Below, in pieces: positions 14,494 through 18,562 of a DNA stretch of 64,000 nucleotides. The position numbers were made by a program, and so were the translations under genes. This stretch comes from Candidatus Mycalebacterium zealandia (GTDB lineage Bacteria > Desulfobacterota_D > UBA1144 > Nemesobacterales > Mycalebacteriaceae), in contig CP046180.1 in the NCBI GenBank assembly GCA_014075295.1, positions 1,018,458-1,082,457 on the forward strand. Reading direction: 5' to 3'. Under the pieces are notes generated by a model, which made no database searches, was not told the DNA's origin, and saw nothing but the letters and a program-made list of their open reading frames with translations. The number at the start of each line of letters is the position of its first letter. Position 1 is the stretch's first letter.

Positions 14494-15888
14494 CTAACTC
14501 ACTATTCGCGGAGTGATAAAGAGAATGAGTTCTCTTTCCACCGTTTGCCTTTTTGAGCTTTTGAATATGGAGCCGAGAAGCGGAATTGATGACAAAACCG
14601 GCACTTTGGAACTGCTTTTGCTTGTGGTTGTGGTTGTGGTAACTATTCCGCCGAGCACTATCGTCTCGCCGTCTTCGGCAAGAACTCTGGTTTTCGCCTC
14701 ATTCCGCCTGATTGAGGGTTGCGAACCAACTGCAAAAGTCGCGTCCGGAGAGTTATCCGTGATGGAAATATCCATAAAGATATTGCCGTCATTTGTGATT
14801 TTCGGCTTAACCTCAAGGCTTAAAGTGGCGTCCGCAAATTCGGTTTTGGTGCCCTGTTCGGACACAGTTGAAAACGGAATTGAGATTCCTTGCTCTATTC
14901 TTGCCACCGAATTGTCAACGGTGATGATTTTTGGAGAGGAAAGTATTTTCACCTTGCCTTTGTCTTCAAGCGCGGACAGGCGGATATCAAGGTCAAAAGT
15001 GCCCGCCAGATTTCCAAGAACAACCCCGAGCACCCCTCCGCTTCCCGTGCCGACCGCGGCGGGCATATCAACAATGAAACCGTCATCAACATTGCCAAAA
15101 GCAGTGTCTATCCGCGTTCTGCCAACTTGTATGCTTGCCGGAAATCGCGCGCCGGTGTTCTTGCTTGTGTAACGTGTTCCCCATTGAATTCCGAGTTCCC
15201 TTGAAAAGTCCGTGCCCGCCTGCACGATTCTTGACTCAATAAGTATTTTCGGCGTGGGCTTGTCCAGCGACTTTACGATTCCGCCAATCCGGGCAATATT
15301 GAGCCGCGTTTCAAGAACGGCAAGACTGTTGGTTCTTTCATCAACCGAGATCCTGCCTTGTTTTGTAAGAAAAGGTTTGATGCCCGTCGCTATGTCGCGC
15401 GCCGTTGCGTAATTCACAAAAAACTGTTTGGACACGAGTTTTTCCGTTTTCTCAACAAGTTGCGCCGTGTCAGACGCCTCTCTGCGCCTTTTGCTTATGT
15501 TTTCAAGCGATGAAATCTTGACGACATTGCCCTCGACAAAAGCGCCCAAACCGTTCTCGGCAAGCACAATGGAAAGTACCTGATCCCAGGGAACATCACG
15601 CAGCTCCATATAAACAGTTCCACTCACATCGCCCGTGATGATAATGTTGAAGCCGCCAATTTGCGCTATCTGCATTATCACCTCGCGCGTGTCCGCACCT
15701 TTGTATATAAAAGTGCCTTTCCCACCCCTGTAAACCGGTTCGTCCGCACCGAAAGAGGAATAGCGGAAGTCAAACGCCCACGCCACATCGCTGTCCGGAG
15801 CGTTTTGCGCGGCGGACAATGCGGGCGCGCAGAAAACAAAAACCGCACACACAATACAGAAACTGATAAATTCCTTAGCGACTCTCAT
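14494..15888 (-). CDS. pilQ: Short PilQ-like secretin
   Basis: 464 residues, much shorter than PilQ of typical type IV pilus systems (about 650-900). A signal peptide ends near residue 26 (FCAPALSAAQ). An STN/N0 domain follows (FIYKGADTREVIMQIAQIGG, then DVPWDQVLSIVLAENGL), then one N1-type domain (FVNYATARDIATGIKPFL) and the secretin barrel with VKILSSPKIITVDN, ARIEQGISIPF and the closing VPVLSSIPLLGSIF...LILFITPRIV. No AMIN (peptidoglycan-binding) domain precedes N0. It should form an outer-membrane ring. Its ATG overlaps the upstream gene's stop by four bases. GspD-like assignment is the alternative, but the N0 and C-terminal motifs are PilQ-type. Confidence 0.85.
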   Translation of the reverse strand: MRVAKEFISFCIVCAVFVFCAPALSAAQNAPDSDVAWAFDFRYSSFGADEPVYRGGKGTFIYKGADTREVIMQIAQIGGFNIIITGDVSGTVYMELRDVPWDQVLSIVLAENGLGAFVEGNVVKISSLENISKRRREASDTAQLVEKTEKLVSKQFFVNYATARDIATGIKPFLTKQGRISVDERTNSLAVLETRLNIARIGGIVKSLDKPTPKILIESRIVQAGTDFSRELGIQWGTRYTSKNTGARFPASIQVGRTRIDTAFGNVDDGFIVDMPAAVGTGSGGVLGVVLGNLAGTFDLDIRLSALEDKGKVKILSSPKIITVDNSVARIEQGISIPFSTVSEQGTKTEFADATLSLEVKPKITNDGNIFMDISITDNSPDATFAVGSQPSIRRNEAKTRVLAEDGETIVLGGIVTTTTTTSKSSSKVPVLSSIPLLGSIFKSSKRQTVERELILFITPRIVS

Positions 15889-16298
15889 TTTCCAAATGGG
15901 ACAAACACCGTTTTTAAATCCCTCTCGGCGGAAACCCCATCCTCTTTTACTTTGGCGATTTTGAAACCGAATGCGGTCTGTCCGGGTTCAACCCAGAGCG
16001 TGCGGCCGCCAGAAACCAGCATGGCGAAATTCCGGTCGGCAAATTTTACAAAGCCCGCCACTTTGAGCGGAAACTTTCCTGGTGAGACGCGTTTGGCCTC
16101 TGCGGGCTTTTTATGCGGAGAGGAAAAAGTTTTGACGGCTGAGGTTGCCGGGCCCGGTCCTGAAAATTCGCGGACGGTTTCACCGGACCCGCTCTTCAGA
16201 TACGAAAAAGGCAACACCGCACACACGCAAAGCGCGACAACAACGGCGGCTCGCAGTTTGCGGGACTGATCCGGCTTTATGAGATTAACCTTTATCAT
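15885..16298 (-). CDS. Bitopic membrane protein with PilN-like N-terminal tail and PilP/GspC-like periplasmic domain
   Basis: 137 residues. It begins MIKVNLIKP, very like the cytoplasmic tail of PilN (consensus near MIxINLLP), the segment known to bind PilM. One membrane helix follows (AAVVVALCVCAVLPFSYL, about 17-34), then a Pro/Ser-rich linker (about 35-72). A C-terminal domain (FPLKVAGFVKFADRNFAMLV to VEPGQTAFGFKIAKVKEDGV) looks like the PilP/GspC homology region that touches the secretin. It lies between pilM and pilQ with four-base overlaps on both sides, and no separate pilN, pilO or pilP is present. I infer a fused connector from PilM to the secretin. Confidence 0.6.
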   Translation of the reverse strand: MIKVNLIKPDQSRKLRAAVVVALCVCAVLPFSYLKSGSGETVREFSGPGPATSAVKTFSSPHKKPAEAKRVSPGKFPLKVAGFVKFADRNFAMLVSGGRTLWVEPGQTAFGFKIAKVKEDGVSAERDLKTVFVPFGK

Positions 16299-17377
16299 GC
16301 GGCTTTCTTCATCATTCTGAGAGCTAGCCCGAACGCGACCGCGGATTTCGCGCTCAAACCTTCAGGGAAACCGTTTCCACTCCGCCCCGCCAGCAGAGGG
16401 TCCGCGTATTCGGCATCCACTCCAAGTGTTTCGGCGACCTTTTCCCGCAAACCATACAGCAGGGAACCTCCGCCTGAAAGAACAACTTTTCCGAGGTTAT
16501 CATTTCCGCAATCGCAGAACATCTCAAGGTTGGATTTCACTTCGTGCAGTATAGACAATGAAAAATCGGCGGCGGCGGAAAGAAACTCGCGTCTTGAAAC
16601 CGCGCCGAGAGATATTTTTTCCGCTTCCGCCTCATCAACTGTAAGGTCTCCCGCGCGCGCGATTTTAAGCGTGAGTTCGCCCGAAGCGGTGGAAAGATCC
16701 CTGGTGAAAACCGTTTTCCCGTCTTTCAAAACAGCGAGGTTTGTTACGCTGTGCCCAATGTTGAGCAAAACCGTGAGCCCTTCCGGAGAGCTAACGCGGC
16801 GGTTGTATGAGTTGATAATCGCAAAGCCGTCATAGTCCAAAACTTCGGGAACAAATCCCGAAGAACGCAGAGCGGAAACATAATCGCGGACGGCGTCTTC
16901 TCTGGCAACCGCGACAAGAACATCTTCGGGGCTTTGCGGATGTCGATAGAAACTGTGGCGGCAGCCGTCCAATCCTTCGGGAAAGAACTTGCTTAAATGA
17001 AGCAAAACCGCGTCTTCGGCAGCTCCGGAATCCGCCGAAAGCGGAATCTTTAGTTTGCTTGTAAAAACCGCGCAACCCGAAACACCAACCGCCGTGCGCG
17101 CGCCTTTGAGTTCAAAATCATCGCGCAAGGAAAGCAATCCCGAACATAAGGAATCAAAATTCTCTATTTCCTTGTCTTTGAAAACACCGGAATCCTGAAG
17201 AGATTCGCGTGCGTGAAGGGGAAAATCCGTTTCGCTCCCGGAAGCGTTGTTGAGAACCACAACTTTGGTGGAATAAGACCCTATATCAATGCCGACCGCG
17301 TTCCTGTTCCGGAAAAATCCGGCTGAAAAATCTTTGATTGAACAGTCAAATATTCTGTTCCGAAAAAGAGTCCTCAT
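16295..17377 (-). CDS. pilM: PilM-like actin-fold cytoplasmic protein
   Basis: 360 residues from ATG 17377, four bases after the preceding stop; a longer reading to 17473 runs inside the upstream gene. PilM is an FtsA-like ATP-binding protein that binds the PilN tail below the inner membrane. The phosphate-1 motif is GIDIGSYSTKVVVL (about 30-43), and the later nucleotide loops are LLNIGHSVTNLAVL and VVLSGGGSLLYGLREK. Segment HLSKFFPEGLDG matches the PilM region with QYIPF. It is the central gene of the operon. FtsA or a type II GspL cytoplasmic domain are less likely, because the neighbours are pilus-type. Confidence 0.82.
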   Translation of the reverse strand: MRTLFRNRIFDCSIKDFSAGFFRNRNAVGIDIGSYSTKVVVLNNASGSETDFPLHARESLQDSGVFKDKEIENFDSLCSGLLSLRDDFELKGARTAVGVSGCAVFTSKLKIPLSADSGAAEDAVLLHLSKFFPEGLDGCRHSFYRHPQSPEDVLVAVAREDAVRDYVSALRSSGFVPEVLDYDGFAIINSYNRRVSSPEGLTVLLNIGHSVTNLAVLKDGKTVFTRDLSTASGELTLKIARAGDLTVDEAEAEKISLGAVSRREFLSAAADFSLSILHEVKSNLEMFCDCGNDNLGKVVLSGGGSLLYGLREKVAETLGVDAEYADPLLAGRSGNGFPEGLSAKSAVAFGLALRMMKKAA

Positions 17378-17381
17378 TCTA

Positions 17382-18158
17382 TTAACTGTTTCGTGAAATA
17401 AATCTTGAAAGCGAAATAACTTTCTTTGAGCCGGTTTTTTCGGCGTCTTTGGAATCTTCCGCCGCCGTCTCAATTATTTTCGGCTCCTCGGGGCAATCAT
17501 CAATAATTTCTTCCAAAATTTTGCGCATAACCTTCAGCGCGCCGACCGAGTGCTGTTTCATGTAGGGCTTCGCGTAGTGCTTGTCTATAATCTCTTTCTG
17601 CCTTTTTGTGGCAAAGTAATGCAGAATGAAAACCTGATTGTTCAATACAACAAGAAGCGCGATATATAGAAGAAGGTTGTCTTTCAAAACCTGTTTCATA
17701 ATCAGCGTTTTTGAGGAGTTTATAGTAACAACTCCGTAGGGATTACCGTCCGTGCCCACAAGAAACGGCGCGGAAACGGTAAACACGCCACCTTTATCGC
17801 GAACGCCGTATCCCCTTTCCTCCGAATACAACTGTCTGGTCTGACGCCCCTGAAAATTCTCCTTTGTGAAAGCAACATCAAACGAAGACGGAACAACATT
17901 GAAGGTTTTAAAAACTCCGGCGGACCCGTGCTTGGTTCTGAGGAAGGAGTAAAACTCCGCGCTTGTCGGGTTGATGTTGTGAACGGCAAACTCGGCCGCC
18001 TCGTTTCCTATTAATTCGGAAGTGGCAACAGTTTTTGTGATAACGTCAGATTTCGCGCTACTGAACTGGCTGTAGAAAACCGCGCCGACAAGAAACAAAA
18101 TCGCGGCTTCTATAAAAAGAACTTTGTAAAAAAGCCCGAGACGTCCAATCAAGCGCAT
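17382..18158 (-). CDS. Two-segment membrane protein with periplasmic sensor-like domain, unknown
   Basis: 258 residues. The first membrane helix is about 12-32 (VLFIEAAILFLVGAVFYSQF), the second about 162-183 (LLLYIALLVVLNNQVFILHY). Between them a periplasmic domain of about 130 residues has the alpha/beta look of a single Cache sensor (SAPFLVGTDGNPYGVVTINS near its end). The cytoplasmic tail of about 75 residues is charged, without a kinase, HAMP or cyclase signature. It overlaps the XRE regulator by 10 bases and is followed four bases later by pilM. I do not recognise the family. A signal-input role for the secretin operon is inference. Confidence 0.7.
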   Translation of the reverse strand: MRLIGRLGLFYKVLFIEAAILFLVGAVFYSQFSSAKSDVITKTVATSELIGNEAAEFAVHNINPTSAEFYSFLRTKHGSAGVFKTFNVVPSSFDVAFTKENFQGRQTRQLYSEERGYGVRDKGGVFTVSAPFLVGTDGNPYGVVTINSSKTLIMKQVLKDNLLLYIALLVVLNNQVFILHYFATKRQKEIIDKHYAKPYMKQHSVGALKVMRKILEEIIDDCPEEPKIIETAAEDSKDAEKTGSKKVISLSRFISRNS

Positions 18159-18562
18159 TTAAGAAATTCTTCAAGTATCTTTCTAGCTTCAGTGTTCTGA
18201 TAATGTTTGAACAGCATAAATATCATGCCGTTGAAGTCCTTTTTTACCTCATCGTCAAGAACCCTGTATAACTTCACCAGATACCTCTCCTCGTCAGTCA
18301 AAATTTCAAACTCTTTTTCGCCAATCAACTCTTTTTCAAGAAATTTATGCAGTTTTTCGCGACGGGAAAGATTCCATATCTCCTCCACGCTCACACGAAG
18401 ACATTGCGCAATCTGGTGGCACCTCTCATGAGAAGGAGAATCCGCTTTTCCGGTTTCAAGCTGGTGGATATAAACCTTTGAAACATCAAGATAGCGCGCA
18501 AGCACGCCTTGAGTTATTCCCCTTTGCTTGCGCTTTGCTTTTAAATAGTCACCAAAAGTCAT
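18149..18562 (-). CDS. XRE-family transcriptional regulator
   Basis: 137 residues. An N-terminal Cro/CI-type helix-turn-helix spans residues 3-60 (YLKAKRKQRGITQGVLARYL, then VSKVYIHQLETGKADSPS). The C-terminal half (about 65-137) is helical and acidic and carries no known sensor motif. It overlaps the sensor-like gene, so it is the first gene of the pilM-secretin operon and probably controls it. The upstream region (18563-18663) has TTGACA near 18648-18643 and an imperfect inverted repeat GGAATAGAAATCTGTTCC around 18641-18658 that could be its operator. Confidence 0.85.
   Translation of the reverse strand: MTFGDYLKAKRKQRGITQGVLARYLDVSKVYIHQLETGKADSPSHERCHQIAQCLRVSVEEIWNLSRREKLHKFLEKELIGEKEFEILTDEERYLVKLYRVLDDEVKKDFNGMIFMLFKHYQNTEARKILEEFLKCA

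Follow-up and report, generated by a model that had tools for sequence, protein, structure and literature searches.

In the type IVa pilus of P. aeruginosa, the long N-terminal region of PilP holds PilN-PilO and its HR domain holds the N0 domain of the secretin PilQ, while the tail of PilN is clamped by PilM (PMC5285504). For T. thermophilus it is reported that PilM must be bound to PilN in order to stimulate the ATPase PilF, and that it needs Lys-26 for ATP binding (PMC6325625); we read this residue as the lysine of the DIGxxxxK motif. Why PilMNOP should exist at all is a question raised in a review of type 4 filaments, given a Com pilus that manages with an ATPase and a platform alone; the review adds that PilMNOP may score as essential only by stabilising other parts (PMC10191384). 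According to the same review the Com pilus of monoderms is assembled without PilN and PilO, as we propose here for a diderm genus, but a monoderm cell offers neither an outer membrane nor a secretin nor PilM for such a bridge. Mergers within this assembly have a precedent in GspL/PulL, where PilM is joined with PilN (PMC10191384), whereas in the protein described here a PilN tail is joined to PilP. Another relative in position is PilW of Thermus thermophilus, which stands in PilP's place before pilQ and carries a GspC-HR-like domain; PilN and PilO are present in that organism, however, and the account of PilW in that source describes no PilN tail on it (PMC13039148). For a merger of PilN with PilP, full-text searches of open PMC papers gave no report.

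The locus that we compare with these systems lies in a window of 64,000 nucleotides, the whole stretch of DNA analysed, from Candidatus Mycalebacterium zealandia (contig CP046180.1). Its genome (G000 below) is a single contig of 1.16 Mb, and the genome of one further species in that genus (G001) was available for comparison. The central gene, which we call protein X, stands among the following features.

14494..15888, minus strand: PilQ secretin, 464 aa, with N0/STN, Secretin_N and Secretin (E 4.2e-45) domains
15514..15705, minus strand: PilQ N0 region, residues 62-125 (type_II_gspD_N0 E 7.8e-4, STN E 1.1e-6)
15885..16298, minus strand: protein X, candidate bridging protein of 137 aa with a PilN-type N-terminal tail, one transmembrane helix, a linker and a probable HR domain of PilP/GspC type
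16278..16298, minus strand: protein X residues 1-7, MIKVNLI, PilN-type and probably cytoplasmic tail, with the start of PilN from L082 and L091
16191..16256, minus strand: protein X residues 15-36, single transmembrane helix (residues 10-31 helical in the full-length model)
16071..16190, minus strand: protein X residues 37-76, linker rich in P/S/T/A/G, RDPF motif absent
15888..16070, minus strand: protein X residues 77-137, predicted HR domain of beta strands, aligned with the PilP C-terminal domain
16295..17473, minus strand: PilM, 392 aa from a TTG or 361 aa from the ATG at 17377 (Pfam PilM_2, E 8.6e-38)
17382..18158, minus strand: membrane protein (MEM), class-conserved upstream of pilM, no Pfam match
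18149..18562, minus strand: HTH_3 regulator, class-conserved upstream of pilM

In our reading protein X is a merger, in reduced form, that stands in for PilN, PilO and PilP and bridges the PilM/motor side to the secretin of a minimal type IVa-like pilus; we put the probability of this reading at roughly three in four. With PilN of type IVa pili it shares the MI[KR][IV]NL[IL] cytoplasmic tail, the single transmembrane helix and a gene directly after pilM; the coiled coil and the ferredoxin-like periplasmic domain of PilN (PF05137) are absent. With type IVa PilP it shares the HR domain, the place directly before pilQ and the expected link to the secretin N0 domain, but it lacks the RDPF motif and the long N-terminal region that holds PilN-PilO, has a PilN-type tail and one helix instead, and falls below the Pfam PilP model. 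GspC/PulC of type II secretion resembles it in topology, with one helix, a linker and a secretin-binding HR domain; in contrast, protein X has no PDZ domain, the class GspC profile is unmatched, and the accompanying PilM and PilB are of the pilus type.

A preliminary description, made from the DNA of the window, had placed at 15885-16298 a protein that looks like PilN fused to PilP, giving no strand. The location is correct, and the frame is that of the minus strand, the plus strand of the same interval having 4 stops. The open reading frame encodes 137 aa and begins, as described there, with MIKVNLIKP. The single membrane helix and the Pro/Ser linker were also borne out: there is one hydrophobic peak on the Kyte-Doolittle scale, at residues 17-35 (mean 2.1), after residue 45 the best value is 0.8, and P, S, T, A and G make up 59% of residues 37-75. 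The C-terminal part is all-beta by prediction. The gene overlaps both pilM and pilQ by 4 bases (ATG/TGA overlaps). Pfam has no match to the protein, including PF04351 (PilP) and PF05137 (PilN), and NCBIfam yielded nothing useful, apart from a weak GspC_delta match (E 0.0042, far below the cut-off) to the copy in the second species.

The two ends of the protein were compared by aligning the two available sequences, as a profile, with PilN and PilP profiles of the same bacterial class; profiles of PilO, PilM, PilQ and GspC (the last from 14 class sequences) served as negatives. Columns 1-13 of protein X align with columns 1-13 of class PilN at E 5.2e-5 (score 35.3). The first 40 columns by themselves score 33.3; the highest scores reached by 300 column shuffles and by 19 real ortholog pairs are 17.7 and 19.3. 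The starts of the 19 extracted class PilN proteins follow MI[KR][IV]NL[IL], apart from a single MV and a single NLV variant, and the first seven residues of protein X are identical to those of PilN from L082 and L091. The pattern M[IV].[IV]NL[IL] opens 50 of the 3008 open reading frames of at least 60 aa in the DNA surveyed for it; 49 of these read as PilN (several genes being counted repeatedly) and the remaining one is protein X, which is also the only such start among the 285 open reading frames of the window. The copy in the second species starts with MIEINLI and is outside this count because the longest open reading frame there begins upstream. A plain HMM of class PilN is less discriminating: it ranks the window protein first with E 0.48, where one of the shuffles reached 0.72, and puts the G001 copy at rank 57. 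The tail at residue 1 and the gene directly downstream of pilM are both features of PilN, and we regard membership of the N-terminal end in the PilN family as supported by these sequence comparisons.

For the C-terminal half, the first hint came when the class (57 genomes) was searched with a profile built from both proteins. The search found both members and one other, weak match (E 0.021); that match falls inside the PilP gene of G017, hence the suggestion that this half is PilP. In the profile-profile comparison, columns 78-126 align with the HR region of class PilP (151-202) at E 0.0029, and the C-terminal 72 columns alone do so at E 0.001. The full alignment gave E 0.047-0.63 with the PilO, PilM, PilQ and GspC profiles, and the C-terminal part gave E 0.35 or worse with five non-PilP profiles, GspC included; the GspC values are 0.33 for the full protein and 0.53 for the C-terminal part. 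The HR score was 25.4 against a best of 19.6 in 400 shuffles, and 25.2 against a best of 22.4 in 174 windows of real ortholog pairs. Taken alone, this likeness to PilP is modest. A plain class-PilP HMM puts an unrelated open reading frame of the window on top (E 0.049) and the G001 copy at rank 5, below shuffles, and does not list the window protein; a profile search of PDB sequences returned as sole match an unrelated ProQ chain (E 0.35).

Structure comparison was more informative. A single-sequence model of the full-length protein is poor (pLDDT 53.5), so a model of residues 70-137 alone was used as the basis; it consists of strands only and has pLDDT 72.5, with 81-86 in the core. Searched with Foldseek against 350,542 PDB chains, it returned HR domains of PilP or GspC at all of ranks 1-7 (probability 0.93-1.00), with E values of 0.0069-0.28, none of them at or below 0.001. 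In VIA the first 12 rows have Z 4.8-9.3 (9.3, 8.4, 8.1, 7.9 and lower) and the next row, an unrelated one, 3.3; they comprise ten PilP/GspC entries, together with a GspB from Dickeya and a chain of a Dot/Icm system. The chains of 3jc8 and 4av2 among these rows are ones we take to be PilP. The best match is the HR domain of ETEC GspC (Z 9.3) rather than a PilP. Matches of the full-length model point the same way, though none is significant by itself (best E 1.0; Z 3.6). No single comparison with PilP is overwhelming (E 0.001-0.003), and it is the modelled fold that decides the assignment to HR domains of the PilP/GspC type, which we regard as supported. The preliminary description had named another fold of this domain as grounds for giving up its reading, and the structures gave no such fold; its C-terminal beta domain of PilP/GspC look thus agrees with the all-beta prediction, the Foldseek ranks and the VIA scores, and its composite of PilN and PilP with both profile comparisons and with the gene order. 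An HR-fold C-terminal domain encoded directly upstream of pilQ is as in PilP, and one transmembrane helix, a linker and an HR domain are as in GspC, whereas the RDPF motif that precedes the HR domain in 19 of 19 class PilP proteins is missing.

The second species has a copy of protein X at the same place, 42% identical, and the same five genes stand in the same order in both genomes. Identity between the two copies is uneven: 5/7 in the tail, 1/6 in residues 8-14, 8/22 in the transmembrane helix, 9/34 with 6 gaps in the linker and 27/50 in the HR core. Scans of the contigs of named genomes with protein X and with the upstream membrane protein confirmed no relative, and viral contigs and plasmids yielded none. 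Two sequences are therefore the only known members in everything searched.

Across the class, 21 of 57 genomes have PilO and PilP matches that exceed the cut-offs of Pfam, and the same 21 have PilN, counted as a protein separate from the GspL type of about 500 aa; pilM, pilN, pilO and pilP were extracted from 19 of these 21. The usual order in the loci read is HTH regulator, membrane protein, lipoprotein, pilM, pilN, pilO, pilP, pilQ. Both genomes of the window genus have instead HTH regulator, membrane protein, pilM, protein X, pilQ, a small protein and RNase R. By Pfam, PilN, PilO and PilP domains are absent from both of these genomes (rated 96.7% and 95% complete), while each of the other genomes of the order (41/41) has at least one PilN-domain match, the GspL type counted. 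A further arrangement occurs in the genera g6 and g9, where the five loci examined (L056, L058, L067, L093 and L094) run HTH regulator, membrane protein, lipoprotein, pilM, small protein, RNase R; here everything from pilN to pilQ is gone and pilM stands alone, which suggests another partner for PilM in those genomes. The small lipoprotein upstream of pilM, conserved in the class, is missing in the window genus.

Of the neighbours of protein X, PilM is divergent in this genus. The TTG start of its listed open reading frame lies inside the upstream gene and the ATG at 17377 a few bases past the end of that gene; the ATG is likelier, because homology begins there. The window PilM keeps the DIGxxxxK nucleotide-site motif, and 40 of 87 class-conserved columns are retained in both species. 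A comparison of PilM columns between genomes with PilN, with protein X and with neither brought out four positions of ambiguous meaning, to which we give no weight. NCBIfam model TIGR02515 identifies the secretin as PilQ, at 367 bits where the cut-off is 284; this protein is 66% identical between the two species, and its N0 region is the expected partner of the HR domain of protein X. An AMIN domain is absent from PilQ of both genus genomes; PilQ of L061, from a full class system, has one (E 7.1e-7).

The genome as a whole contains the type IVa set of PilB, PilC, pilins, prepilin peptidase, PilM and PilQ. G000 keeps one T2SSE ATPase, which is PilB-type by tree (it groups with PilB of the class and of outgroups, branch support 0.93, and not with the GspE of the class), and the platform protein PilC adjoins its gene. 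There is one prepilin peptidase, one secretin, ComEC and four N-methylation matches, and a minor-pilin cluster is common to both species. G001 has three T2SSE matches; among the matches listed, one is a full ATPase, also PilB-type, and one is weak (E 6.7e-4). A second ATPase was not found in G000 (a single T2SSE match), hence no PilT, and retraction through PilT was dropped from consideration. Nor was a type II secretion set (GspD, GspE, GspL) found alongside protein X, G000 having one secretin, one PilB-type ATPase and no PF05137 match. ComEC is present in 21 of 23 class genomes with PilNOP or protein X and in 5 of 34 others, all five exceptions belonging to genus g9; a Fisher value for this association is not a fair probability, as the genomes are related and relatedness was uncorrected. 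Family f8 (G043-G056), of small genomes, has no match to secretin, pilin, PilN, PilO, PilP, prepilin peptidase or ComEC; the window genus is similar in genome size, yet keeps a minimal pilus set.

Several other explanations deserve consideration. Protein X could be a PilP whose signal anchor has drifted toward a PilN start, with PilM held otherwise or working alone. The local alignment with PilN is limited to residues 1-13, and g6 and g9 relatives hold a lone PilM with no adjoining PilN, so PilM can persist without that partner. We nevertheless think such drift unlikely, as the first seven residues match two PilN proteins of the class exactly, the pattern is otherwise restricted to PilN in this material, and the start is kept in both species (5/7) while residues 8-14 are not (1/6). 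It is also conceivable that a bridging protein of GspC type, from type II secretion, has moved beside pilM and resembles PilN at its start by chance. The short tail, single helix, Pro-rich linker and HR domain are GspC topology, the top structural match is the ETEC protein, and the weak GspC_delta match of the G001 copy points the same way. Gene position and tail already disfavour this, the tail fitting PilN and not GspC; moreover, the class GspC profile gives E 0.33-0.53 against 0.001-0.003 for class PilP, a PDZ domain is lacking, a second secretin and a GspL-type PilN domain are missing from both genomes of the genus, and the ATPases found are PilB-type, so that we hold a GspC origin to be quite improbable.

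Protein X might also be a decaying, functionless remnant of a deleted pilNOP region in a shrinking genome: G000 has a size of 1.16 Mb and what looks like a frameshift in a minor pilin gene of this system, and the f8 genomes have lost PilN, PilO, PilP, secretin and pilin matches altogether. However, two species at 42% overall identity keep the frame at full length, with its tail and HR core (27/50), while the linker varies freely, the 4-base overlaps with the neighbours are in place and PilQ is 66% identical between the species; decay therefore seems to us very improbable.

If protein X is the merged replacement we propose, its function can be pictured as follows. The cytoplasmic MIxxNLI tail would sit in PilM as the PilN tail does, bringing PilM to the membrane and perhaps setting it to stimulate PilB, the extension ATPase that PilM in turn is expected to touch. 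The single helix would span the inner membrane and anchor the chain; the flexible linker would cover part of the periplasm, and the HR domain would reach the N-terminally shortened PilQ and grip its N0 domain as PilP does. PilB and PilC may polymerise the pilins as in the Com pilus, with protein X keeping the secretin in register, so that one chain would tie the motor side, the inner membrane and the outer-membrane pore with no periplasmic PilN-PilO ring. What the computation shows is the family of either end and the place of the gene; binding to PilM and PilQ is inferred. Since the RDPF motif and the AMIN domain are lost, and given the contacts known from P. aeruginosa, the parts facing PilN-PilO appear to be gone and those facing PilM and PilQ kept; the RDPF motif itself would be the PilN-PilO contact of PilP.

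The gene occupies the pilN-pilO-pilP site, with the start of pilN and the end of pilP, and the simplest route to it would be an in-frame deletion that began within pilN and ended within pilP. A PilP that gained the tail later is another possible origin, and it would work the same way. The pilus of this genus may serve DNA uptake, as the retention of ComEC suggests. For the complete picture, a diderm pilus, probably for DNA uptake, that dispenses with PilN and PilO and in which a single 137-residue product of a pilN-pilP deletion couples PilM and the motor to the secretin, we see about even odds.

Of the PilMNOP chain, the genus seems to retain the contacts at the two ends, with PilM on one side and PilQ on the other, and to have given up the middle; it would thereby separate in nature the bridging role from the PilN-PilO role. 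If this is true, it amounts to a natural knock-out, in which the periplasmic PilN-PilO ring is dispensable and the tail contact with PilM and the secretin contact are not. Protein X would offer a short, expressible protein for measuring each contact.

Two observations concern the minor-pilin cluster. A FimT/FimU-like minor pilin is a single open reading frame of 163 aa in G001 (L142:7592-8083) and two overlapping frames in G000 (L141:6961-7484), which may reflect a frameshift, decay or a sequencing error. Near metG and the minor pilins, both species also encode a large protein of GGTDTLAFGDGNH-like repeat units (L141:10446-13547 and L142:46-4617).
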